Below, in pieces: positions 2,228 through 64,000 of a stretch of DNA of 64,000 bases (its first letter is position 1; every line of letters starts with the position of its first letter). This DNA is from Thuidium tamariscinum. Taxonomy: Eukaryota; Streptophyta; Bryopsida; Hypnales; Thuidiaceae. The DNA is taken from NCBI GenBank assembly GCA_947034885.2, contig OX344749.2:51365682-51429681 (forward strand), given 5' to 3'. The position numbers were made by a program, and so were the translations under genes. The notes under the pieces are model-generated. The model was given only the letters and a program-made list of their open reading frames with translations. It was not told where the DNA came from and searched no databases.

Positions 2228-5200
2228 TCATGACAAAGCAACTGGAGATGCACTTGCCAGAGCGTTTGAAATTCCCTGTCCAAAGACAAATTCGTTGTGA
2301 GATACCATGGAGATTTTTAAGTTTTCCAATTGGTGCTTCTAACAAATTTGTTTAAACCCAATTCATTGAGCATTGAAAACAAAGGATGGGAAACAAACAA
2401 GTTCACATGACAAATGTACTAGAGCTTGTCACTTAAAACCTTTCACTCATTTTACTAACTGAACAGGAATGAAGTTTGGAAGTCAGTGAGTTTTGAGCTC
2501 ATAGTGATCTCCCCCCAATTGCTAGTTTTGACTCACCGTTCCGGATTCTGACTCAGCTTTGCGTTTCTCGAACAGAAGAGGTATTTCTTTGTCTAATATT
2601 TCATTGGCCCAGGCGTAGTCCACAGGCACCTGCAAAATTCTCAAACATCAATTTAGTACATTCATTAACATACTTTCACTCCTATTGCTTACAAAACAGA
2701 AACAATGCTTCTTCGTTTTGTTATTTTTCGTTGCCCCTTGATGTTTAACTTGCTTACCAAGCCTTTCTACTAATGATTTTATGAGAGCATCTTTACCTCA
2801 ATAAGTTTCGGTCCCTTGGGGCTGGTATGGAGGCACTCGTGAAGAATATGTGAAAACTCATCAGCACTGGTCACTCGGTATCCTTTGACACCATAGCTGC
2901 CACAGTGTAAAAAATAATGTTCAGTCACTCCCTAAACCCTAATAAGCAAAAGAAACAAGAAGCGAAGGTATAAGATAAAAATTACACTGTTTCCAGAATA
3001 TAAGCTAGCATCATCATGAGAATTTTCTTCAAGGTTCATACGGAAACCTCACATAATACATAGGAAGGCCTCCATATAGTTGCTGTGATCATAAGAAAAA
3101 CTCTCCTCGAATCATAAACAAGGATTCTTTTTATGACGTTGCTTAGAGATTCATAAAACCATCTAGTTTTACTCAAGACCCTATTAAGAATGTTCGCACA
3201 TTAGATTCGCCCAACCTTATCAACAGAATATCCTCCATACACAAAGAATGTTTGAACTTCATGGGGAGAGCATAGTAAAATCATGAGGTTCCTAAATCCC
3301 ATTAACACTTAACAACAACAACTCATCTATTCATACAGAAAATATCATATTAGTACATATGACATGTCTAGAATATTGTTTTCATCCACAATCTGGCCAT
3401 TTCATCCAAATCATTTTTTTATTTCAAAGTTTCCAGGCAAAAAGAAATCAAAGTTTGCTGCCAATTTATAACCAGATTATTTTTTCTGGGTGCACTCTGG
3501 CACTAGAAAGCCAAAAAAATAGCCCTGGAGAGCACACACTCCTACATGGGTTGGTTAAAGTGACGGAAAGAGAGTTCTCTACTTTACAAATGTGCTCAGT
3601 AATAACTCACCTGTTTGCATATGCAACGAAGTCCGGATTTCCCAGATTCAGACCAAACCTGCAAAACATCAAAATGGTATATTCCAGAAGACATTACAGC
3701 AGGTCCAGAATCTTCAATGCATTTCGAAATCCAGGTAATCTAAATAAGGCTAATGTCATGCAAGTATTATGAAATCTCTGTACTGTGGAGACAGTGGATG
3801 GGCACGTACTTGTCAAATCCTGCGAGGTTTTGCTTCCACTTTATCATGCCGTACGCATTGTCATTTAGAACCAAGACTGTCAAGTTCAGGTTCAATCGAA
3901 CACACGTTTCCAGCTCCTGCGAATGACACACGGTTCTTGTCAAAGAAATTATATAAAGCTCGTGTTTGTGCTCATAACACTCTTGAGAGAAGCTGCGCAC
4001 ACCTTTGACAACCCTGAAGAAGCAAGGTATTATCTGAAGTGTTTGGATTCGGTTAAGCTCTTCTTTCCTTGGCACAAAATTTAGCAGAATAGGTAGCTTC
4101 AAACAAATGCTTTCAATTGAAGCCATCGCAGACAAAAAAGAAAACAAGGCTGATACCCAAACCCACTTACTTGTGAGTTCATCATAAAGCCCCCGTCGCC
4201 ACAAACAGCAACAACCTTCTTCTCAGGATGCAGGATGGCTGCTGCCATAGCTGATGGCAGTCCTGCACCCATGGTGGCCAGTGCGTTGTCTAGCAGCAAT
4301 GTGTTTGGCTCCGAGGCCTGCCATATCATAGAAAAGATCCTCGATTTTTTAAAAGCAATTGGAAGATATGCAAAGTCTTGGAGCTTTGAGGATGAAATTT
4401 TGGAAGATCGAAATGCATGCTATCTCTATCACTTTTACATGACACCACTCAATTTCAATAGCTTTTGAAATAGTTATAAAATTCTTGAAAAACTCCAAAT
4501 AAGCTTGTCGAAAAGCATATTTCACCCAAATAAATAATCCAACAACTCAGCAACAAACTAGGCTCACTCCTGTAGTGTAGTAGAGAATTGAGAGAGGTAA
4601 TAAGGTAGAAAGTAAACGGGATGACAGAATAGGGAGAATCATTACCTTGTAACATCGTGCGAACCAAATCTTGTACATACCTAACAATTGATTAAAAAAT
4701 GGAGATCATTAGAGATCAGGCATCCAGACCTCTTTTGTGCATGAAGCACTTCACAATAACCATCAAAAATTTGAGATAACTAAGAAGTGAACCCCCAAGT
4801 GGTCAAATGGCTAGGAAGTGTCTGCTTCCACATCCTTAGGACTTGAAATAAAATCATTTAGGAAACTGTATCCAACTATATCAATAGAAAGAGGACATTG
4901 TACAAAACGTTTTTAAGCAATGTAAAATGTGTTTGAAAGTTGCTTCATCCAACTCTTTGGTTTCCAAAGTCAAATACCTATTTTTATCTTGGGACATTTG
5001 GGGGGTCAGTAACAAATTCAATAGCTAAATTGCATACTTTCACTCACCATTGTCCAAGCACACAATGCCATCATTGGGGACTTGCTTCCTGCAAGAAAAA
5101 AAATCTGTCATCAGCTTTCTCACATAAGATTCTTGACCTCATTAACGCACTCAATGCAGAAGCACAGACATGGTGTTGAGTACCATAGTGACTCATCAGC

Positions 5201-8200
5201 TTAGTCACAAAATAATTATTTATTACAGCGAGGATGTCATGTGTCACGTAGTCGTTGGTTGAAACACGCGGAAAAGTTCATGTCGCACAAAAATACATTA
5301 AATATTGGCAAAATGAAAAGGCCTCAAGTAAAAAGGTACTACAATGTACAAATTTTGACTCAAAAATTGGAAACATCCTCCCTTATATAATACATACCGC
5401 ACATCTGCAACTATTCGTTGTGGCACAAGAGGGAAACGAGGATCAGTAACCCCCTGCAACATATGCTCATCCAAATCTTTCTTCACCTGTTGATAATCCA
5501 AAACCGCACATTAGCTCTTTTGTGACATAAGGGGGTAATTCCAAGTGTCAACTCCAAATAAAATGTAAGATTTCATCTACCTCTTTCCATGTAATCTGCA
5601 GTACAATCCTCTGTATGATCTTCACAATGTGAAATTTTGAGAAAATTCCTATTCTACTATCTTAGAAAGCTGCTATTTCTGTGACCACAAGTTACAATTC
5701 TGCATAAAATTCATCTCTTGGACAATGAATCCCCAAACTCTAACATTGATTTTAACACATGTCTCGTTTTCATTGGGTAACAAAACTTTCTACCTTTTGC
5801 TTGGTCTCTCTCCTTGGAATAAAGACAACAAGTCTACGAGTTCTTAATACTGAAAATATACAACTCGATTCGATTCGATTCGATTAGGGTTAGGCCAGCA
5901 ATTATACCTTCATCATGAAAGAAGTGTCCCAATTTCGAGGTTGATCCTTCAGGCGTTCCTTCAGTTGCCAAATTGAATTGGCTATGTCGCCCACCACTTC
6001 TAACTACAAAGGCATATTCATTCCAAACTTCAATAGTCAATGTTATAATGCTTTTACTTAATTGCATTAGGTTTACTAAGCGTTAGGAGTAAATCGGGCT
6101 CAGTACGCATAAAATCTGAATTGAATTTACTGAAGATGAAGTGTGAAAATATTGAGGACTAGATTCACGAGGCATACGATGTGAATAGCATTCACTTGTA
6201 CACGATAAAAAAAAAAACATCATAAATTGATACAATTTGTGAGGTTAAGAGGGTCAGGTTGTCTGACCTGCGGAAAGTAAACATTGTCCACCTTCGCAGT
6301 GTAGAAGTTGATGTGGATAACAAGAGGAGGTTTTCCAAAGCTGCGATGTCAAACATCCAGACTTTAATTAAGGCATGAAAAACGTGGTAAAAGAGAAAGT
6401 AAAGCTCACCAGTTCCTTAAGAGCTAATATAAGTTGGTTAAAAAATAAAAATAAATGTAAGATGTAGATTAAAATAAATTAAAATAAATCCCTGCTTCTT
6501 CACTTATAAACTGGGTGAGTATCCAAGATTCTCACTTCATCAAGAAAGGAGGCTTCTCCACCACATCGTGCCCAACATTGATGATCAAATCAGCCTTCTC
6601 AATAGACACATGTACATAGTCTTTAGATGATAACGCACAGCAGCCCAAGTACCTGGGGTGATCCTCTGCAGAAACCTCAACTAAATCAGTTCAATAACCT
6701 CCACAGTCAACTTCATAGACTACAATTTCCAACAGGACTCTGGTTTTGAACATAAAATTCCACAATCCATGTTACACAATATCTCAGAATACCATTTCCC
6801 TTAAAAACTCAGCATGCAATGTGCACACTATTTTTGCACTCAGAGTGAATGGTTTCTGCAAATACTGCATGACAAGCAGATTGCTAATCCCCTGCAATTC
6901 ACAGTTTAAACTTCAAAAAGTTGCATGAGAAGGGGTTGGCAATCGCCAACCATAACAACCTAGGGAACCCAAATGACATACAAAAGGCATGCACAGGGAT
7001 CCTGACACCTTGTTCTGCATAGTTGAACTCATCTTGTTCGAGACAACAAATGAGCCCTTGTCTTCACATGTGAGTATGTTAGAGCTTTACTTTCTCTCGC
7101 TTTTGTTATGATTTGACGTGACTTCGCTCAAAATGAATTAGTTAGCATTTCTCTCAAAAATTGTCATCCCTCTACTGGTTTTCAATGCTTTGACCCATTG
7201 AAATTCAAAGCCCACATTCAAACAGGATTCTAGTACAATGTGCAATTGTCATTCGCCATGTGCAGTTTATTAAAGATGAAATGTGACATAATCCATGTTA
7301 CGCATTATTTCTATGATATCTGCCACGAGTTGTGCTTAAAACACGTACCAGACACAACACCCTTGCCCATTTGAGTTGTCACAAAGGGCATGTGGATCTG
7401 ATCAACGAACTCTCTCAGCCTGCAACATACATCACAGGAAGCGGATTGCAAATTTCAATACCACGCTACAAATAGAATGGTCGGAAGACGCCTTCTCGTA
7501 TACTTTAAAGCAGCCAGGACCACTCTCCCTTCTCTACTATCGACTCAAATTGAAAAATGAATCAAAATACTCCAAAGAACTATGACATAATTAGAGCTAG
7601 AAAATTTCTAAGAGCATGACTTCGAAAGGAAAGTCGTGAGTTCAAGAGTGTTTCCAAAATGCATCCATATTCTTTTTCATGAACAATTCCAAGGGTGTTG
7701 AGGCAGCTCAAACAACAACAATTACATCTTCTGTGCCCGTAAACAATTAGCACCACCTCAAAAACAATTTGAATCACTGTACAGTGCTGTCACGTGGAGC
7801 TAAGAGAATTCTAAACTATTCACAACGAGACTTTGCAAGGACAAGCATGAGCTCACAAAAGGAAACCAAACACTGCTTCATAACAAGTGCCAAAGTGTAC
7901 CACCTACATTTTTTGTGTCCGTTTCCGATTGGCTCCTGCTCCAATTAAGAGAAGAGGATGAGAAGCACTGGTAATCATTTCGATTGCTTTGTTAATGGCT
8001 TTCTCTTCAGCAATTGGCCGTCTGACTGGATACACAGGAAATGGGCGTGCGTCGGTGTGTGTTCCTGCTATGTCTTCCGGCAACTCCAAATGCACAGCCC
8101 CTGGACGCTCTTCCTCTGCCACTCGCACTGCCTCTCTCACCAGTGACGGCACCAAGTCTCCATCCACTATTTGTTTTGTGAACTGTCAATGCCACGGAAA

Positions 8201-10811
8201 TGCTGTCACCAAAATTGACACTTAAAACAAATAGGATCCGAAATTCACATGGTTTTGAAATGGTCAGTTTGAGTGATTCGAATGTCAGAGTATTACATTT
8301 CAGATATGACCCAGTTCTACATCACCAGAAACAGTGAAAACATTGCATGCGTTGTTCAATAAATAAATAAAATTGGACTAAAGAAAGTTCCCATATGACA
8401 AATTTGGTAGGAGCTCAATTTGGTCCCTCTAATTAGGGATTGAATTGATCCCTAAAATGACCACGAGCTCATGGATTTAAAATGACCAATTTGATTGATC
8501 ATACTGAGAGAATAATAGAATATTGATGAGGCCCAAATTCTTAGTTTGGACCATACCTTCGTCATTGGACGCATGCACTCCACAATATCGACAATCTGAA
8601 AAGAGCCCTGCTTGCTCTTCCGAATTGGCTTCTGCCCTGTGATCATCATCTGCCAAGAAATACAAATGCACTTACTGTTATTGCAAAACTTACAAAATAA
8701 ACGAGAAAATGTTGTTCAGTTGGAGCTGCATTGTTAGCCACTAAACATAACATTATTAAGCAAGTCAAGACATTTAAACAGTGAATGTTTATAGGCCAAA
8801 TATTTTGTAGTTGTTTCATTTTTTAACCATAAGCAAATAGGTACACCAGTCACAAATTCATTGTTCGCAAAAGACACCCCATCTGCACAGGTTAGTAATG
8901 TTACGAACTAAAGCAAACACCAACAATACAACACGTACATTTATTTGGCTAAGTAGGACTACCCCAAGCAGACTCTTGGGCTACATAAACTCACGTTAAG
9001 CTTCTTAGGGTAAAATGAGACTCACCATAGGAAACGCAGCAAGCTGAGCGTATGCAGCTGCTGTGGTGAAGTTGGTGGCACCGGGGCCCAAAGTGGATAA
9101 GCAGCAGCCAGCCTTGCCAGTGAGGCGACCCACAGTGGCAGCCATAAAGCCAGCAGCCTGCTCATGCCGTGTCACCACCAGCTTAATTTTTGAACTCCGC
9201 AAGGAGTCCAAAAGGTCAAGATTCTCCTCCCCGGGTATCCCAAATATATACCTGCACACATTAGTTACCGAAACAAAACAAATCTTCAGCATTCACATGG
9301 ACATATCACACACTCAATACTCAATAGAAAAAATTCCATAATCATTTGGCTCAAAGACAGGTAGTTCTCTCTATTCGCTATTCTACAACCAATTTGGTTT
9401 GGTCACGGATTCATTACCAAGTTCCTAGGTAAGAATGTAGGCAGGCATACAATTGAACCCAAACTACTTCCAAATCATCCATATGGGATCGTTTCCAGTG
9501 GTCAATTAACCGCTCTAACCAAGATTGGTAATGGTACCATGCACCACTTGGTAGGTGTGATGAAGCTCAAAGTCTCATGTGCTCATGAAGCTCAACTCAA
9601 AGGTGGTTAATGCCTTTGGACGAAACGGCATTTGACATCACTGACATTTGGAAATATTAAAAATAGCACTACTGCATATTCATATTGAAAGACACAATGA
9701 GAATCGATGAAACAAACAAGGAATGAACCGTAATCGACGGGCAGAAGGAAGAATAGTCTAAATAGTTCTTTCATTCTCTCCATCAATCTATTCATCTGCC
9801 CAAGAGGGATACTTTATTAATTACCTTACTTCTGATCCCTACAAAGATCCCTGCTACCAACAGCCACTCATTTCATCATTCCCCGTGGCTGTATTTATTG
9901 TTAGTTGATGTAAAAAAGACTAGGCTACATGTCAATGGCCATCGGTCTTTGAATGGAAATGGGGTTGTCAACTGCCACTCTCAAACATCTACAACCTCTC
10001 TCTTCGAAATTGCATACGAAATTCGAATCGAACGATGAAAAATCAATACCCAAGGAGTTCATCCCTCAAACCCAAAGGTCCCAATCTGCACTGCACCGTA
10101 GATCTCCCTCAAATCGCACTCATACTAAATATTTTAGAAGTTTAAAGTAACCCAAACAGTATCCCTTACCTTAATTGTCAGAAAACCAAAATGCAGGATT
10201 TTCAAACATTACCAAGCTCTAGTGCGAAATTACAAGGAACAAACGAGCACGTCAAGGAATGCTGCGCACGAGAGCCCCAATGCAGCCAAACCCCAAGATT
10301 TCGACAAAATTTTGCCTCTAGCTATGATACTACCCCAAGAGAGAAAATGCAAATATCCAGCCAGCCAGATTTCAAATGCAACTTCCTTGGGCACACCCAG
10401 AACTTCGATTGCAGCTACAGAAATTAAAAAATGCACCATTCTCCAGAATTCATACCGGGATTATATCCGAAACCCAATTCTCGAAGCCGAGACCCGAAAA
10501 CCCCAAAATGAAAAATAACATCACTGCCTCGGTGTCCAACGAATTTGAAACCCCATTTCACGAGGTAGTGTCCTCGACAGGAATGGACGCTGAAAAAGGA
10601 GAAGAATCTAACTACATGGTTCTCCGCACCATCAATGAATCCACCCAGCAAGCATAATTTGTGGGGCATTGCCAAGGTAACTTGCAATACAATTCTCGCA
10701 CCCCAAATTCTCGCCCTAACCCACAAACTTGTACTCCAATCATACAGTAACGAGCACTTACTCGATGTTCTCATTCTCCAGCGCCTTCACCACAACGTCG
10801 GATGTCTTCAT
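2228..10811 (-). CDS. Bacterial-type acetolactate synthase-like thiamine diphosphate enzyme
   Basis: Seventeen exons chain in consistent phase to 573 residues: 10811-10762, 9251-9026, 8649-8557, 8182-7908, 7419-7349, 6665-6536, 6340-6268, 6003-5908, 5486-5398, 5088-5048, 4680-4646, 4317-4171, 3916-3810, 3658-3611, 2896-2797, 2629-2537 and 2275-2228. An N-terminal TDP domain begins YIFGIPGEENLD, with the conserved Glu at about 47 in TRHEQAAGF. A central domain follows, then the C-terminal TDP domain with GDGG at 433-436 and LNDN near 459-462. Family knowledge: bacterial catabolic or IlvB-like acetolactate synthases (pyruvate to acetolactate) have this length and these motifs. An in-frame stop lies upstream of the first ATG, and no transit peptide is visible, so the protein is probably cytosolic. 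It is unlike the usual plastid AHAS, which suggests old transfer from bacteria (inference). The last intron is less certain: without it the frame stops after four more residues. The exact substrate is unproven. Confidence 0.86.
3376..3540. repeat. Partial copy of the 56.7-kb foldback element, in an intron
   Basis: The stretch with TTTTCATCCACAATCTGG, TTTCATCCAA and a T-rich run closely matches the arm of the foldback element at 56732-57392. It lies in the intron between exons 14 and 15 of the thiamine-diphosphate enzyme gene. Both ends appear eroded. Confidence 0.55.
5862..5886. repeat. (CGATT)n microsatellite in an intron
   Basis: About four to five tandem copies of CGATT lie just downstream, in gene direction, of exon 8 of the thiamine-diphosphate enzyme gene. 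This is a short simple repeat with no evident function. Confidence 0.8.
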
Positions 10812-23342: not shown

Positions 23343-23729
23343 TTAAGTTAGAAGAGAACGGGTGGAACTGTGGAAGAAGAGGGGGAGCGAGAGGAGGGAT
23401 TCATTTCCAGATGCAGCGATGGATTCCCTGTCCGGATCTGGCCCCTGGAATTGCAGGAGAGTTCTTTGACGGAGGGGGAGAGGTTTGTGAGGCTTCCGAA
23501 ATCTAACTGCGCTCCTAAAACGCAAATTGGAAGGTCCAATTCGCGGCCATTCGCATTCTGTGGGACGACCAAGTGATGCAGTCGCCTGTCCGACGACGAA
23601 TTCAATCTCCACTCCGCATTTTCCACGTCGAGGTGTGTCGAACACTCCCAACCCCTATTTGTCACGTGAATTCGACATGTGCCGATTTCTGATTCCTAAT
23701 TCGATTTGGGGACCCAAGTTGCTGCCACG

Positions 23730-25591
23730 ATGATCGTCACCATGACGCTCCCTTCTGAGCACATTCTCCAAAACTCGGGGCTTCTGCGCTCTCGCACAAC
23801 TCTGCACAGGTTCCTCCACCATGACCAACATCTGCCGTCGCACGACTCGTTCAGCTCTCACGTCGCATTGCCCACTGTCGACTTGCACTCCTCGCGTCCG
23901 GAAGAGCAGCTGGGCGAGGCATGCCGGGACTGGGGATTCTTCCAAATCCGCAACCACGGCGTACCACGGGCGCTCCTCGACCGGCTGCGAGCGCACTCGC
24001 ACGCGTTCTTCGAGCTCCCATTGCAACAGAAAGAGCGAGTAGCCGCGTGCCGCGCCAATAACTTCTACGGCTATGGTGTCGCCAAGGCGCGCACGTACTT
24101 CCCGGACGACTGGATGGAGGCTTTCGACATGGAATGGACGCCTGTGTCGCGCGTAAGGCAGCACTTGGAGCAGCTGGCACTTCCGCACGGTCAACTTCAC
24201 GATTTCTGGTGAGGAACAATTCCAGTAACGAGCTTGAATAACCAGTGTTCGAATAATGCCTTGTCACGAATTTAGGGCTAGATTGCTGCTGTACTTTGAG
24301 GTTGTGAGATTGTTCGTCAATTGGACTTGTGTGTGAATTTGTTCGGAAGTGGCGTGGTGGAGGAGTACGCTTCGAAGACGGAGAAGCTGGCTGTGAAGCT
24401 CACGGAGCTGGTGGCATTAGGCCTTGGCCTCGACGCGACGACATTCTCTCGCCACTTCGAAGAATCAAGCACTTCCACCGTGCGCATGAACTACTACCCT
24501 CCATGCCCACAACCCTCGCGCACGTTCGGAATCTCGCCTCATTCGGATTTCAACATCTTCACCATCCTGCTGCACGACACCGTCCCCGGGCTGCAGGTGC
24601 TCAAGGACGGTGAGTGGATCACTGTGCAGCCCAACCCAGACACGTTGGTCGTCAATGTCGGCGACACTTTCCAGGTGAAATCATGTCCTGAATCGCAGTA
24701 AACCCTAATTCCTGTTTCTGAATTCAAACGAGGTCGTCCTGGTTGATGAATTTGCATGGAGGGCTAGGTCGAGGTAGAGGATTCTATTACGTCATTTCAT
24801 CATTTATGCATATGTAGGAGTGTGATTTTGTTAAGATCAGTTTAGAGCTGTGGAGAGATGACTTAACGGTTCTAGAGCTAATGCTATTGAGCCAAATCGG
24901 ATGACGACTTATTGCAATCATTCAAAATGGGAGGTTTAGACATTCCCATTTCCCATTCAAAGATCTGTGACCACAAGGATTCAGTCCAGCCCTGTTTACA
25001 TCACCTGCTAATAATGTTCAATGAAGTGTGTGAATATTCAGTCAAGTCATGCTTCCACCGATTGCTAATCGAAGCCAACCAAGTGGTACAAATATGTGGA
25101 CCACTGTTATTCACAGAGGCCAGCTACAGGAGTGGATTTAATGGAATTGATCACCTCTAAGCAATTAACACTAACACCTATCAGCGGTACTGTACAGTAA
25201 GGTAGCCTAATTAACAGAGGTCAATATAAGAGACAGTACCTGGTCCCTAATGGTTTTACAGTATTCTCCTAATCTTATGGATTGCTGTGGACGCTGGCAG
25301 GCATGGAGTAATGGCCGGATCAGGAGCGTGATGCACAGGGCGCTGGTGAACACGACCGAACCCAGATTGACGGTGGTGCACTTCTTCGGTCCCCATCCCG
25401 ACACCACGATCGTCCCTCCCCCATCGTTGGTCGACGATGAGCATCCCCTGCTGTATAGAGCCTTCGCATACGAGGAGATGGTGGAGCAGATCATGCACAT
25501 TCGTGGTAAAAGGGAGTTCCAGAGTCCCCTCAACTCTTTTCTTCTTTCGCCGAATCCACCAGCTCATCTCTTCGGGAGTGATACTTCGTGA
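23730..25591 (+). CDS. 2-oxoglutarate/Fe(II)-dependent dioxygenase (DOXC type)
   Basis: Three exons, 23730-24208, 24350-24674 and 25301-25591, give 364 residues. The N-terminal DIOX_N half is visible as LPTVDL near 47, ACRDWGFFQIRNHGV and FFELPLQQKE. The catalytic jelly-roll half holds the iron ligands H224 and D226 (PHSDFNIFTILL) and H280 (SVMHRALV). The 2-oxoglutarate-binding Arg is R290, but the usual RxS is RLT. NYYPPCPQP and AWSNGRI are typical of plant hormone and specialised-metabolism dioxygenases. The substrate cannot be told. The second splice, before AWSNGR, is at a position common in the family. The first splice leaves a Cys at 160 and is slightly less certain. The exons are GC-rich against AT-rich surroundings. 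The ATG used is the first in frame after the GC-rich leader; a second at codon 5 is possible. Confidence 0.9.
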
Positions 25592-50517: not shown

Positions 50518-53500
50518 TCAACGGGAATTGTCAGATCTAAATGTACACATCTGAAGTAGTGTCAAGAACCATTTACCTAGTCGTAACCGTAGATGAGCGT
50601 AGTCAAGTTTTGCCCTTGTAAATGCCAACAATCCCTGTTCGTGAAGACCTGCCATAGGACTCGAACATCGTTTTGTTAACCTTAGAGTGACAATACTACA
50701 CAACCTGTCAAACAAACTCACAGACAGAAGAAATTGCAATCTCCACACACACAAATCACACAAGACAAAGTCTCTACTCTATCTGGAAAAATTATCTAAA
50801 TGTTCTACCACTTTAATAAAATAGACAGAGGCCCATACTTGGTTCTCCAGGATGTTGAAGGGCTAGGCCTGTAACAGCGTTCTTGACATAAGCCATGAGA
50901 CGGGTTTTACGGGTTGCTCCTAATCTGTGTGCCAGAGACCTTACCAGACCACTGTCGAATAAAAGGTGAGAAACAGCACCACAAAAGTTCATCAGATCAA
51001 GGAAAGGATCATAAAGATCATTCAAACAAAACAGCTCATGATTGAAATCTCTAGCCCTGGCTCATTTACCAAATGCAAGATCAGAGAAGGAAAGATGACA
51101 AGAAGGAAAGATGAAATAAAAACAGGGACAGGGATGGGATTTACTCTGTCCTTAGCACGATAAGAAATTCACGATCTAGACCTTGCAACCATTCTGAGAC
51201 GTCACCCATAGAGAGACGTCTCACTTCCTGCTTCAGCACCTTTTGCTCCTCTGGGGTCATCATCTGACCAAATGACGACTTACTGCATAAATCCAAAACA
51301 AACACTCGCGAGTGATTATCAACTCAGTGAACAGATTGAGTTACTCGTTGCAGGTGAAATCAATGTCACCAATTTTTCCTTGTTAGAGCCCAACAGATGA
51401 ACAGGGTAAGAATTGAAAACATAAACCCTGAAACTAACAAATGTAGAAAAGGAGGCCTTCATACCTCGCTATAGCCCGACCAGTAAATATGACAGGCAGA
51501 AAATGAGCATATTGCCCTGCTCCTAAATTCTTTCCAGTCTCTAGTATTTCCTCCCCATCAAGAAGGATGAGAGCCCGCCATAACCGGCAAAAGTTCGTAC
51601 GAAATTTCTCGTCAAGGTCTCTATAGAGTCCGTGATCTAATATCACTAAACAAGGCCACACAGCAAGGATAGCATCAAATTCAAATTCATGTGCTGGCGA
51701 AATTCATCTTTTTAAGACCACGTCACATGCACAATACTTTCATGAACCTTAAACTTCACTTTTATGTTCACAATATGGTATTTCAAAACTCCTCATTGAC
51801 GTTAAAAATCCACTTTCGGCAATTAAAGTGGAATGTACTATGAAGGAACAACATTATTCTAAAGGATTCTGCAACGTGATGTCTACATAAGCATGACAGA
51901 ACATTGAACCACCAACCTATATCAAAATTGTGCTTCCCAGAGCGAGAGGGATCCCGGTGCACCAAAATATTCCCAGGATGAGGATCGCCGTGCACATATC
52001 CGTGGCAAAATATCATTTCCGCAAAAATATCCACCAACAAAGAAGCGACCTGGTCATATGAATCCTATTAGTGACCGTTGAGCACACCAGCAGCTTGAAT
52101 GGAAAGCCAATACGGATCAAACCTTGATTAGCAAATGACGAAGTTCATAACATCAACGTATAGTTGTCTAGCACATCAAGAACTTCTATAGAACTCATTC
52201 GCAACAGCCCTACCTCCTTGGGATCAACTCCCGCTTTCTCCAGGCTTTCGATGTCATCAACCTGCACAACAACACCACGATCAAACAATCAGTTCGAAGC
52301 TAATTTCTACATAAAGTTTCAGGTTCCCATTTTTCATCTACACATCTGATCTTCATAAGTCTCCAATAGGACCACCTAACGAAACACGAATATCTATATA
52401 CACACACAAAAGAAGGCTACTGATTGTTTTGAACCCTCTATACTTCCAATCCTGAATATTAGAATTGACGCCTTCAATGCTCAGGTTCATTCCCTAATTT
52501 AAAACAAAACATCTTAATACTGTACTCGTTATCAAAGATTTAAACACCTATATAAAACCAGAACTGAAAACCTGACCCAGTATTCAAAGCTTTTGGGCGC
52601 CTTAGCATCAACTCTGGCAACATGAAATCCGCAATTATAACTGATTTGGTTTCTGTTTTAACATCCTTCAAAGCCCATTGGTAAAAAGATGTGAGTTCAC
52701 TACTATCAGAATATCGCAGCACTTACCTTGCACCCTTCCATGAATTCCATGGTCAGAACCCTGCTTGTTGATAATTCCTGCAATAAAAAAATCAGAATCC
52801 AGACTATGTTCTTGACAAAGGATATTTTAGAGGTCAAAAAATCCAGTCAAGAAAACAGCATTGATGGACATTCCAATTCTCGAAACTAAACTAGAGAAGA
52901 ATTGCCATCCCTATTATGTGTTCCAGACCTAGTCTGAACACAAGGTTAATATATTCAACAATAACAAGATAATTACCCTGAAAATGTGAGGAATACGAAC
53001 ACCCTGTCTATGGGCAAAACTTTTAGCAGTTCTATCTGCATTATCTGCTTCCTGAATGAAATCTGGACCAAACAATATAAGAGGATCAATGTCGACACAT
53101 TTGTATATTTAAAATGACGAATTAAACCCTCGGACCTGCATCGCTATTACTACAGTAGAAATGGACAAGAAAGTACCCAAATTACTGAAAAGTAGACAAG
53201 AGGAAAATGAAAAAAACGAAGCAAAAATAAAGACGATGTCGCGTGGTGACTCTGGATCACTTACCAAGCTCTTTCACCAAACTCTTTTCAAATTCTGGTA
53301 CTAGCCACTCAAATTGATAATCGGGAAATATCTGCAATACAAAAAATGATATCAGCTGCTTCCAAGCATGCTGAGACGCACGCCCTATTTGACTTCGATA
53401 AGATCACGAATAAGTTGAGCTTCTCAACATGAGGTCAGACGAGCTTTCCTAGAAGGCATGTCAATGATGTGCCCAAAAAAAGGATCTCTCAAATCTATCA

Positions 53501-58324: not shown

Positions 58325-60932
58325 TGCTATCTTTTTTTAATGCACATCCTCTATTTTTTCCCCTAATACTAAAGAATGAATTCAATGGACTTAGGCATGT
58401 GCACACCTAGTAAGGTGGGTATACCTAAAAGCACCACTTTTGGATATTGTACCTAGTTACTATTACTAGTCTATTCAAATTTTCATATAGTCTTCTTGGC
58501 AAGTGAAAGCACGTTCTAATGCACCAAAGAATGTAGCATTTGGATACAATATGCAAAAGTTATTGAGGTTCAAAGTTTGTGACAAAGGTGTTTGGAATAA
58601 AAGAATAATTTTCTTAACTTGGATTGTCAAAAACTCAACATCAAGCTTGAGAGATAGTAAGTAACACCACCCAATTACATTTACTAAAGCAATTGTACTA
58701 TAGTATGAGCAACCAAAGTAGTTATAGTAATTATTTTTGTTTGTCTTCCAATTATATTGCTTACGTAGGCATGTATAGCAAGCACTCTTAGTATTTGTGG
58801 GACTAGATGTCATTCAACAACTTTTGTTTGAGTACTAGTATTGTAGAAGTCCTCTACTTTGTTTTTATTTTGGTGCAACAACTTGATTGACATTTGCCAA
58901 GGTATAGGTGAGTACAAGCTTGGCATGGGATACACTAAGGTAGAAAGCAAGAAGGCTAGGCAATAGTATAAAGATCATTGGACAATTGCCATTTAAATGA
59001 CAAGAGTTAGCATTCAATATTGAATGTGCAAGAAGAATTGTAATAGAAGAATTAAGGAAGGTCGGCAGCTAATACCGGTCTTCATGCAGTTTGATGCAAT
59101 TTGAATTGTTCTTTAAAGTCAAAAGGTACTCCTTTTTTTAAAAATTGGGACCTCCTCCGCTCAAAGGATCGGCATGCTCTTTTTCCTTGATACCTTAGTG
59201 TCCATGTAGGATTAATTTTGTGAAAGAACGGTAGTATAAATGAGCAAATAGTTTCCCTTCAACCACATACACAACTTTGATCCACAATGCTTGGTCTAGA
59301 TGGGCCATTTCTTAAATGAAAATGCAATTTTTACTCTTTCTGTCATATTATGTTATATCACCAAAAATTGCATGCAAATGTCCTAATTAAGATTTCAACA
59401 AGTGTAAGTTAAGAAGAGCAACAATTTAAAAAGAATTCAACTCATATGTATATTCAATCAAGTTGTATCAAAATTGCAATATTTTTGGATTGGTTATTTA
59501 TCCAATCACTTAAAACTTGTGAATATTATGAATGTAAAGAAAAATCTTTCATTTTGAGACCAATTGCAAAGAATGTTTACTTAGAAAAATTGCTTCATTG
59601 ACAATTTATAGCATTAGCTTTAGAATTGATTTTTTCTTTGGAATCATTTTGAAGCAAGACCTTTGATATCCTCTAGTCATATTAATATCTTAGTTAGACT
59701 TTTTCCTTGAGATTTATGTCCTCAAGAAACCTTTGTTGGAGGAAATACTAATGATGTATTCTTTCATTTTTGTACATCAATATTGTTCTACAAAAATCTA
59801 TAGCACTTCAATATTATCAAGATTGGTGCATTTTCTTCTTTATTTAAGAAGTTTATTCTTTAAAATAAAATTCATATTGAAGGATAGATTACTTCATCTT
59901 ATTGAGATAACTTTTTCCTATCAAAAAACAATTCTTTTATAGATAAAGTTCTTACTATAATTTACTTGATATTTTTTGCAACAATTTTCTTTCTTTCTTT
60001 TGGAGCATAAATTCTATTATACCATCCTATATTATACTAAAATTTATGATGATATAAACTTTTGATATTTCTTACCACTAATTTCTTTAAATTAAAAAAT
60101 AAAAAATAAGTAGAGACATTGTGATAAAAATTCAAAAGTCCTATTTTAATAAATGAATGAGTATTCTTATATTCAAATATTTTGTCATTTCATTAATTAA
60201 GGTGCATTTCATTTTAACTTCATTATTATTGAATCTTTTATAGGTAAGATGAAATAATGTTCAACAATGAATACTAGTCAATAAATTCACAATTACAATT
60301 TAAAAAGAAGTAATGTAGAGGCAGTTTGGTATAGAATTTGTTCAATTTTGTTTAATTTTCAAGGTTATATACTAAATTAGCATATCAAACTTGTTGAGAA
60401 TTTGCCTTCAAAACATCAAGACAAATAAGTATCTTTAATTTTTGTATTAAAATAATTTTATAATGTTTTTTCTTGCCAATAAATAAATCAGTGATTTTTT
60501 AATTGTGGAAGTAAATAAGTCTTTGTGTCATACGATGCAAGATTAAAAAATTGGCATTTATATACATCAATATCAAAATTAGATTTTTCTTACGCATATT
60601 GCAATTGAAAATATGACTTTCATTCTATTGTATGATTATTTTATTTAAAATAATTATATTCTTTGATGTATACTATCTATACATGAAAAATATGAAAACT
60701 GATTAAAATTTTCATATACAAGATTTGAGATTCTATTATATAGAAATATTAACTTATTTAGGATTTGGTATAAAATATAAAACATTAAAAGAACAAATAA
60801 TGGCTCCTATACCTAAGACTTTATATAAGTTTCCTATAAAAACTTAGTAATTTTCTTATTGAAATGATGTCATAGCAATCCATATTTTATAAATGCAAGA
60901 AAAAATTTCAAATATTTTTGTTCAATCATAAA
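58325..60932. other. AT-rich spacer, no gene seen
   Basis: The small frames here are unlike any known protein. AT content rises steadily towards 60900, where the orphan reading frame begins. Regulatory sites for that frame cannot be picked out by eye. Confidence 0.5.
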
Positions 60933-63506
60933 ATGACTAAAAAGAATTATGAAGATAAGATAAGAAATTTTTATGTGAATTCTATTACAAATTCAACAGT
61001 CAAAAAAATAAAATTTACACATAAAATATCAAACAATAATGTAGAAATTCCGGCAACTCTCTTTGTTAAGTACTTCAAATTTGCAAATGTCTCATCAAAA
61101 CCATCAAATATTTTATTAACAACGTCAACAATTGACAACAACAGTGTCGATGAAAATCTATTTCATCGTCCTTGTTTACAAGGAGAATATTATGATTTGA
61201 TTCAAAGTGAAAAAGAAGGAATTTATTTAGACAATAAACAACATTCAAAGATAGGTTCATCAAGTCACGATCAATATTTGGTTGAAAGTCCTTTAAATCA
61301 AGATCAATATCTGGCAAATGGCTCTTCGAATAGTGAAAATAAAGGTTTGATAAACAACAAGATAGAAGATTTCATAGAAGGCAAGGAAATTTTTTTAATA
61401 GAAGACTGTGTAGAAGATTTGATAAAGGATGATGCAAAAGATTTAATAGAAGATGATGAAGATTTAATAAAAGATGATGTAGGAGATTTAATAGAAGATG
61501 ATGTAGGAGATGTAATAGAAGATGATGTAGAAGATTTAACAGAAGATGAGGTAGAAGATTTAATAGAAGATGATACAAAAGATTTAATTGAAGATAGGGT
61601 TGAAAACTTGTTACAAGAGGAGGTAGGAATAAATCAGGAACAAAATCTAATAAAAAGACCTTCATATCAAGATCAATATTTGATAGATAATATTCATAAT
61701 CATCAATATACAAATAGCCAAATATATCAAAATGAAGATTGGCTATACTATAAACAATATTCAACAAATGAATTTTTAAATAAAGAATGTCAATTAATAA
61801 GAGGTCTTCAAAATCAAAAACAATATGAGATTGAAGACTTATTAGATGAGCAGTATTCCATAGAAAAAAATGTAAATGAGTATAATGACCTAAAAAAACA
61901 AGATTTAAGTAAAGAACAAATAATATTACATAATAAAACAAAATCAACAAAACTAAAGAAAGTCACAAATAAGACTCTTAATGAGTTTAACTTAAACAAT
62001 TGTTATGAATCTAATGTAAAAGCTAATGATAAACATTGCAAATCTCACTTATATAAAGCTATAGGAAAGAAATTCATAAAATCCCAACCCCCTTTTCATA
62101 AATTGCCTAAAGCAAATAAATTAAAATCAAAAAAATTGAAAATTTTTATTTCAAAGGTAAGGTCAAAATCTATTGGACAAGATCAAAATAATGATAATAA
62201 AAAGAATCATAAAATTTTGAATAATAATACAAAAAATACAAAAAATACAAAAATACAAAGTAGTTATACATCAAAGAATATTAAAAAATATTCCAAAATT
62301 TCAAAATGTTTAGGAGATAAGAATCCAAAACCACAAAATTTAAGACATTATTTTGACTCCAAAGCTTTAAAGCCAATAAAAGCTTGTCTATACAAATCAA
62401 ATTTACATCATTCACAATCATGGAAAATTCCTTCGTCAAATGGAGATTATCATGCCATGGAATTTAACAACTTGCAATCAACATCAAGACATTGCCATCA
62501 AGGTAAGAATCCATATGCTCAACAAGTTAGAATTTATTCTACAAAGCCAGAAAGTCATTTATCAAATGCGCATCATTATAGAGTAAAATTTAATAGTTTA
62601 CATCCAACACCAAGGCATTGTCGTCAAGATAGAAAACCACTACCTCAAAAAAATAAATTACGTAATCCCAAGTTAAGGAGTTCATTAGGAAATTCACATT
62701 ACAAAAATTCAATATTTAATAGTTTACCTCCATCACCAACAAGCTATCAATATAGGGAACCACTTTATCAAAAAAACAAATTTCATTATCCATTTAAATT
62801 AAGAAGTTCAATAGGAAATTTACATCATAAAAATAAAAGATTTAATAGTTTACCTCCATCACCAAGGGATTGTCATCAACATAGTAATTTAGATGATCAA
62901 AAAATTAGAAAACAACAACTTAAATTAAGAAATCAACTACCAAATTATGATTACAATGTCATAGAGTCTAATGGTTTATCATTATCACCAAGGGAATGTC
63001 AACAAATTTCCACTTTATACAAGGAAGAACCCAAAGAATTTTTTCCAATAGCATTGAATCCTATCAATCAAAATAGTACATTAAACAACTATTTGCAACA
63101 ATTTTCATCTTCAGAGTCATTTGCTAAAGAAATTCCTCAATCAAACTTTTATTTTGAAAACAAACCAAAACCTAAACATTCAAATGATACATTTCTTAAA
63201 AATATTCCTTTTGTAAAACGATTTAAACTTCCTTTTTCATGTCAATCATCTATATCTTTTGGATTAAATTACTATACTTCAAAAAATCTACAAACACCAT
63301 CAAATTTCAAAACTCATCCCTCTATGTTGTCATATCCAACATTAAGAAATTCAACAATGCCCAATCAACATCTTTATGTATTACCTTTCTCAAAATTAGA
63401 GAATCCACAAATGCCACAAATTAAACAACCTCCATCAAGACACTTTGATATTGAATTTGTTCATTCCGGCAAAATTAAGTACACATGCAATAATATTTTT
63501 TATTAA
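60933..63506 (+). CDS. Intronless orphan protein with acidic octapeptide array and C-terminal repeats
   Basis: An uninterrupted 857-codon frame starts at the first ATG (MTKKNYEDKIRN); five more codons are open upstream. I recognise no domain. Visible parts: residues about 156-231 are nine tandem approximately 8-residue units of the type VEDLIEDD. Two or three QDQYL boxes lie around residues 114, 124 and 247. A Lys/Asn-rich basic middle spans about 330-470. Five imperfect repeats of about 41 residues fill about 502-710, each led by a FNSLPPSPRxCxQ motif. No signal peptide or membrane segment is evident. Codons are strongly A/T-ending and the protein is rich in Asn, Lys, Gln and Ser. Such a long frame by chance in DNA this AT-rich would be very unlikely, and the ordered repeats argue for selection at the protein level. 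The function is unknown. Confidence 0.65.
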   Translation: MTKKNYEDKIRNFYVNSITNSTVKKIKFTHKISNNNVEIPATLFVKYFKFANVSSKPSNILLTTSTIDNNSVDENLFHRPCLQGEYYDLIQSEKEGIYLDNKQHSKIGSSSHDQYLVESPLNQDQYLANGSSNSENKGLINNKIEDFIEGKEIFLIEDCVEDLIKDDAKDLIEDDEDLIKDDVGDLIEDDVGDVIEDDVEDLTEDEVEDLIEDDTKDLIEDRVENLLQEEVGINQEQNLIKRPSYQDQYLIDNIHNHQYTNSQIYQNEDWLYYKQYSTNEFLNKECQLIRGLQNQKQYEIEDLLDEQYSIEKNVNEYNDLKKQDLSKEQIILHNKTKSTKLKKVTNKTLNEFNLNNCYESNVKANDKHCKSHLYKAIGKKFIKSQPPFHKLPKANKLKSKKLKIFISKVRSKSIGQDQNNDNKKNHKILNNNTKNTKNTKIQSSYTSKNIKKYSKISKCLGDKNPKPQNLRHYFDSKALKPIKACLYKSNLHHSQSWKIPSSNGDYHAMEFNNLQSTSRHCHQGKNPYAQQVRIYSTKPESHLSNAHHYRVKFNSLHPTPRHCRQDRKPLPQKNKLRNPKLRSSLGNSHYKNSIFNSLPPSPTSYQYREPLYQKNKFHYPFKLRSSIGNLHHKNKRFNSLPPSPRDCHQHSNLDDQKIRKQQLKLRNQLPNYDYNVIESNGLSLSPRECQQISTLYKEEPKEFFPIALNPINQNSTLNNYLQQFSSSESFAKEIPQSNFYFENKPKPKHSNDTFLKNIPFVKRFKLPFSCQSSISFGLNYYTSKNLQTPSNFKTHPSMLSYPTLRNSTMPNQHLYVLPFSKLENPQMPQIKQPPSRHFDIEFVHSGKIKYTCNNIFY
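61384..61611. repeat. DNA encoding the acidic octapeptide array
   Basis: About nine tandem 24-base units of the type GATTTAATAGAAGATGATGT, some one codon short. The units differ at synonymous and non-synonymous sites, so the array is not brand new. Confidence 0.85.
62436..63062. repeat. DNA encoding five approximately 41-residue repeats
   Basis: Five units of roughly 125 bases each carry a core AATAGTTTACCTCCATCACC or a variant. Units three and four are most alike, which suggests the most recent duplication. Confidence 0.75.
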
Positions 63507-63765
63507 TATTTATTTCTACTATAAATATCATATTTATTATATTGTAATAAAAATAAAATCATACACTTCTACAATAATGTTGCATTTTAAGAATTGCATG
63601 ACTAGTTCTAATGTAGAGAATATTTCTTAAGTAGCATTCAAATGATGAAATATTTACATGAATGTCATAAAATACCGCTAAGATTTATACTAAAACATGC
63701 TTTTAAATGCAATTTGTAGCCTATTTACAACCCTTTCTTCTCACCATAAAAACTAGCCATATAAT
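63507..63765. other. AT-rich spacer between two similar frames
   Basis: No gene is seen. It is the 3' region of the orphan frame and the leader of the next one. Confidence 0.4.
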
Positions 63766-64000
63766 ATGTCTTGTAGAAGTATAAATACAAAATCTAATAT
63801 GAATTTCATACCAAATAAGATTTTGCCAAAGACATGTAAGAAAACCTCTAAATTCCTCAATTCTTATTCTAATTTTTGCAAGCCAAAAGAAACTAAATTA
63901 CAATTAAAAAATAATAATAGTAATAAAATTAAAAATTGCTTTAAGAAACCAATAAAAAATCATATACCAATACCATCATCAATTTTATTAAGATTAAATG
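63766..64000 (+). CDS. Start of a second Lys/Asn-rich frame, cut by the window edge
   Basis: An open frame begins ATG TCT TGT (MSCRSINTKSN) and runs without a stop to the last base, at least 78 codons. It has the same A/T-ending codons and Lys/Asn/Ser/Pro bias as the orphan frame 260 bases upstream, with stretches such as KKPIKNHIPIPSS. No domain is recognised. It may be a second member of the same kind of gene, a second exon, or chance in AT-rich DNA. Confidence 0.35.
   Translation, partial: MSCRSINTKSNMNFIPNKILPKTCKKTSKFLNSYSNFCKPKETKLQLKNNNSNKIKNCFKKPIKNHIPIPSSILLRLN

Follow-up and report, generated by a model that had tools for sequence, protein, structure and literature searches.

The 64-kb window analysed here, by which we mean the whole stretch of 64,000 nucleotides (C1:51365682-51429681), carries at its end a long open frame, ORF1, followed by a shorter basic frame, ORF2, and a second such pair lies elsewhere in the same genome. 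Taken as a whole, and with a probability that we put at roughly 60%, the evidence points to a genuine gene of a moss-like plant, present at two paralogous ORF1-ORF2 loci and encoding a disordered repeat protein that may act as a scaffold. The frames on contig C1 are called A1 (ORF1) and A2 (ORF2) below, and those on contig C9 B1 and B2. The features of the C1 locus, in window coordinates, are as follows.

60933..63506, + strand: ORF1 (A1), 857 amino acids, pI 9.0, about 100 kDa, predicted disordered
60999..61118, + strand: N-terminal stretch resembling the C9 paralogue (VKKIKFTH / VRKVQFSH), a piece found by blastp
61395..61607, + strand: acidic array of LIEDDVED type, its nine units 8 or 7 residues long, from tandem-repeat analysis, not in the C9 paralogue
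62307..62564, + strand: core nearest to the C9 paralogue, by tblastx and blastp, overlapping the first 42-residue unit
62394..63023, + strand: five 42-residue (126-nt) tandem units with an FNSLPPSPR-type motif, starting register arbitrary
63479..63776, + strand: putative 298-nt phase-2 intron with a weak donor, whose removal would fuse ORF1 with ORF2
63766..64000, continuing to C1:51430199, + strand: start of ORF2 (A2), a basic frame of 250 amino acids

A1 runs from an ATG to a stop codon over its 857 codons and lies within a stretch of 876 codons free of stops. When window positions 60001-64000 were shuffled 300 times under a first-order Markov model, the longest stop-free run had a mean of 82 codons and a maximum of 127, so that the frame is not accidental; in addition, an intact homologous frame exists on C9, indicating that the coding frame has been maintained. 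GC3 in A1 is 0.152, as compared to 0.274 and 0.351 in two flanks assumed to be non-coding, and low GC3 is common to all four frames (0.187 in A2, 0.194 in B1 and 0.164 in B2). The original prediction of an 857-codon frame with two repeat systems and a strong composition bias was thus borne out, and from its sequence properties A1 is very probably a real protein-coding gene.

Searching the whole genome with A1 retrieved one other locus, C9:12065114-12065725 (E = 3.0e-8), and the reverse search with B1 returned A1 at E = 5.8e-10 together with a second A1 stretch at E = 0.066. The B1 frame spans 622 codons with no internal stop (L002:580-2448; shuffle maximum, 166). Plain BLAST E-values inflate similarity among the K/N-rich proteins considered here, with reversed sequences still reaching E of about 5e-4. 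The best A1/B1 blastp alignment scored 77.4 bits, a value that none of 500 shuffles attained (best 44.7), and the reversed sequence scored 29.3; the match is not an artefact of composition. This significant similarity corresponds to the core containing the first 42-residue unit. The N-terminal stretch by itself (41.6 bits, E = 0.066 in the genome search) falls below the best of the 500 shuffles, and is supported because it is collinear with the core. The claim that A1 is an "orphan" in the strict sense, a singleton, is therefore wrong, since a paralogue with an intact frame exists in the same genome.

The likeness between the two loci extends beyond the core and the N-terminal stretch: the two frames stand in matching order and on matching strands, the ORF1 product is acidic and then basic, it is disordered by the charge-hydropathy measure, and third codon positions are AT-rich. 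Judged by sequence, the two loci are distantly diverged paralogues, the two found in this genome. A segmental or whole-genome duplication was considered as their source and rejected, as a comparison of 200 kb around the C9 copy with about 92 kb that take in the window and its downstream side gave nothing in common except matches resembling dispersed repeats. Comparing 8 kb on each side of both gene pairs for further exons likewise yielded only dispersed-repeat-like matches in common.

ORF2 extends past the end of the window, and the original prediction therefore covered its start only. Its counterpart B2 (L002:2872-3549) is a basic frame of 225 amino acids lying downstream of B1 on the same strand. 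A2 and B2 align with 47.4 bits, a score reached by none of 500 shuffles (best 43.5), whereas the cross pairs are within the shuffle range, with 22 of 500 shuffles scoring as high for A1/B2 and 224 of 500 for A2/B1. In the genome search B2 retrieved itself plus A2 (E = 0.0064), and A2 retrieved only itself at E up to 1. By sequence alone the A2/B2 homology appears weaker than that of A1 and B1; it becomes convincing because each of the two frames follows a homologous ORF1 in matching position, order and strand.

The two frames follow each other closely, the spacer being only 259 nt long in the C1 copy and 423 nt in the C9 copy, which raises the question of whether they form one gene or two. Reading by eye shows, between B1 and B2 in the C9 spacer (L002:2554-2777), a MITE-like fold-back repeat whose ends are inverted. 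In both copies the best phase-matched splice pair is in phase 2 and at an aligned codon, with candidate donors at codons after KI/KT, 28 and 25 nt upstream of the stops. Some phase-matched pair is expected by chance, and we estimate the chance of agreement in both copies at about 1/9. The alternative, that ORF1 and ORF2 are separate neighbouring single-exon genes, is a substantial possibility: each frame has its own ATG, AATAAA-like words seen by eye in the C1 spacer could end a transcript, even the best donors fall short of background (scores of -3.1 on C1 and -1.3 on C9), and the top C9 acceptor (1.7) is out of phase with the donor. These scores derive from a generic table of plant splice sites. 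Against two genes stand the shortness of the spacers, of which the C9 one includes the fold-back insert, and the agreement of the splice pair in phase and position. On balance we lean slightly towards a single spliced transcript containing both frames, which would make the description of A1 as "intronless" wrong; what stands of that description is that no intron was seen inside ORF1, and it is made insecure by a best phase-matched pair that would join ORF1 to ORF2 through weak donors.

The two repeat systems of A1 were found largely as first described. The acidic array occupies residues 155-225 (tandem-repeat score 262) and consists of nine units laid end to end, which had been described as nine octapeptides; eight are indeed octapeptides and one is a heptapeptide. 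In the second array there are five units as predicted, their length is exactly 42 residues (126 nt) rather than about 41, without any shift of register, and the FNSLPPSPR motif said to lead them is complete in one of the five and present as a variant in the other four. A Ser/Thr-Pro-Arg motif occurs in units 2, 4 and 5, with SPT in unit 3 and none in unit 1. The periods of the arrays, including one in B1 described below, are all multiples of three (24 nt, once 21; 126 nt; and 114 nt in B1), a point in favour of a gene. Tandem Repeats Finder reported two more short arrays inside A1, one at 62226 with periods of 9 and 17 and one at 62902 with a period of 20; the 17- and 20-nt periods, not being multiples of three, count against the reading of A1 as a gene.

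The two paralogues differ in repeat content. B1 is without the acidic array, carries a single 42-residue unit as opposed to five, and has 22 Ser/Thr-Pro sites versus 6 in A1. It also contains its own exact tandem duplication of 38 residues (residues 339-414, period 114 nt), whose identity over 122 nt implies either recent turnover or homogenisation of the two units; this duplication is possibly polymorphic. From these differences we conclude that repeat number changes fast. An origin of all repeats after the split of the two loci found no support, since pS among the 42-residue units of A1 (0.485) is not below that of the A1/B1 core (0.414), and also because unit 1 of A1 is about equally near to the B1 unit (33%) and to units 2-5 (36, 26, 28 and 28%). 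A loss of 42-residue units in B1 is possible.

By simple Nei-Gojobori counts, which are rough in such AT-rich sequence with high dS and no correction for AT bias, dN/dS between A1 and B1 is 0.74 over 72 core codons and 0.68 over 40 N-terminal codons. The comparison of Ka/Ks between repeat units, put forward with the original prediction, gave a divided answer under the same counts: the acidic units have pooled pN below pS (0.203 vs 0.359), and the 42-residue units have nearly equal values (pS 0.485, pN 0.443), with a ratio above 1 in 3 of the 10 unit pairs. Constraint at the level of residues is therefore weak except in the acidic units. What is kept in both ORF1s is the open frame and the overall charge pattern of an acidic part followed by a basic one. 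The weak dN/dS signal and the low complexity of the protein would agree with a non-functional or accidental frame held open through composition. Such an explanation is nonetheless very improbable, as it has to account for an 876-codon run where shuffles give at most 127, and for four frames, homologous in pairs, that are open at two diverged loci.

The product of A1, taken as a coding gene, would be soluble and intrinsically disordered, acidic over residues 151-250 and mostly basic in its second half. Counted per 50 residues, net charge is -20 and -13 across the acidic block; beyond it most values are positive, reaching +10. The charge-hydropathy line places all four proteins on its disordered side, and none contains a hydrophobic 19-residue window above 0.84, that is, no membrane-like segment. 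AlphaFold2 modelled A1 with a mean pLDDT of 34.9, placing helices over much of the acidic array (pLDDT about 51-57); because this was a single-sequence run without relatives or an alignment, the low confidence does not decide whether the protein is disordered.

Intrinsically disordered tandem-repeat scaffold proteins form a general class whose members are charge-segregated, carry tandem motifs and have no membrane segment. A1 has the same three features, and combines charge-hydropathy disorder with repeated short motifs; the likeness is one of these general features. In a mechanism of this kind each repeat unit would be a short binding or phosphorylation motif, and its repetition would set valency, with the motifs differing between loci in tandem copy number while staying in frame (nine acidic octapeptide-type units in A1; five 42-residue units versus one). 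Opposite charges might promote self-association, the acidic units could give basic partners, perhaps the basic ORF2 part among them, repeated sites to bind, and the Ser/Thr-Pro-Arg sites of the 42-residue units would suit phosphorylation or docking. The scaffold or polyvalent binder envisaged in the original prediction is plausible in this light, and we tentatively suggest a multivalent scaffold as one possible role of the ORF1 product.

Relatives of these proteins were sought in several collections. None of the four frames has a relative above the cut-off in Pfam or any relative in PHROGs, and the PDB gave only weak matches for A1 (E = 0.27) and A2 (E = 0.58-0.79) and none for B1 and B2. A Cep192_D8 match of B2 (Pfam, E = 0.098) was below the cut-off and was disregarded. 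Scanning viral contigs with patterns from A1, B1 and their alignment produced 6, 11 and 83 pattern matches, respectively, of which tblastn confirmed 0, and a scan of prokaryote genomes for ORF1 produced 209 pattern matches, none confirmed; these scans covered ORF1 by a few short peptide patterns. No viral homologue thus emerged for ORF1 among the viral contigs or for the four frames in PHROGs.

These results bear on the proposal that the gene had been transferred or domesticated. An origin by transfer from a virus or bacterium, or from a domesticated mobile-element gene, would agree with the AT-rich composition, the lack of known relatives and the fact that no intron was seen within ORF1. Missing introns are weak evidence for transfer, however, because ORF1 and ORF2 may be spliced together, because other long open frames lie near the C9 copy, and because single-exon structure is common among lineage-specific plant genes: according to PMC2829037, 861 (65.0%) of the Arabidopsis lineage-specific genes have a single exon, as compared to 19.2% of conserved genes, and only 36.0% of these 861 were expressed. 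Transfer found no support in the three viral-contig scans and the prokaryote-genome scan, in which ORF1 had no confirmed relative, or in Pfam, PHROGs and the PDB, which gave no relative for any of the four frames; furthermore, only two copies were found in the genome, unlike in a mobile family, and the flanks of both share only dispersed-repeat-like matches. We consider it very improbable. The locus is, on present sequence evidence, very probably a fast-evolving lineage-specific gene of an ordinary kind, and the proposed lineage specificity fits the searches, provisionally, as the comparison with eukaryotes consisted of Pfam and the PDB. As described in the same paper (PMC2829037), lineage-specific plant genes resemble A1 in having no detected relatives and few or no introns, and the Brassicaceae-wide set also has lower GC; they differ in being shorter than conserved genes, whereas A1 is long at 857 codons.

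Literature searches covering moss genomes as well as orphan and lineage-specific genes returned no title or opening of an abstract that describes such an ORF1/ORF2 family. A wider proposal, speculative and rather unlikely as a whole, is that the loci represent an undescribed family restricted to mosses, consisting of a single spliced gene or of two genes conserved as a pair, and that its charge-patterned disordered protein would have its binding valency adjusted from paralogue to paralogue and from species to species as several different tandem motifs are gained or lost in frame. If expressed, the locus would add a family of two loci for which the searched libraries gave no relative. It would also be a natural example of a disordered protein changing in repeat number, its shared core being joined to either one or five 42-residue units and the acidic array being present or absent. 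Since mosses are editable, the effect of valency would be directly testable. The locus also illustrates that an apparent "intronless orphan" can arise from viewing one exon or one copy alone.

The surroundings of both copies were also surveyed. The 363-Mb genome comprises 11 large contigs of 54 to 17 Mb; among the first 500 bases of 10 of these (C9 not included), the plant-type telomere repeat CCCTAAA was seen in 6 and N in 4. A further two contigs are small, 103 and 115 kb, and could by their size be organelles: a tRNA-Cys lies at the start of the 103-kb contig and none at that of the 115-kb contig, which is shorter than the 123.5-125 kb plastids of three mosses with 11 chromosomes, Straminergon stramineum, Climacium dendroides and Ulota crispa. 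No RNA genes were found in the 64-kb window. Scanning 20 of its 112 fragments of at least 75 amino acids with Pfam gave the following matches above cut-offs.

3770-9292, - strand: thiamine-pyrophosphate-dependent enzyme in pieces (TPP_enzyme_N, TPP_enzyme_C; 3 fragments)
23700-25588, + strand: 2-oxoglutarate/Fe(II) dioxygenase in pieces (DIOX_N, 2OG-FeII_Oxy; 2 fragments)
51786-52064, - strand: ABC1 atypical kinase-like fragment (1 fragment)

The first two are split over several frames in a manner consistent with introns. The claim that introns occur in all the other intact genes of the window was thereby checked in part, within the 20 fragments scanned. Around the C9 copy there are further long open frames, including one of 398 amino acids with F-box and kelch matches. 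A homeodomain frame (L038:7819-8547, - strand), which by eye we take to be WOX-like, lies about 10 kb upstream of that copy.
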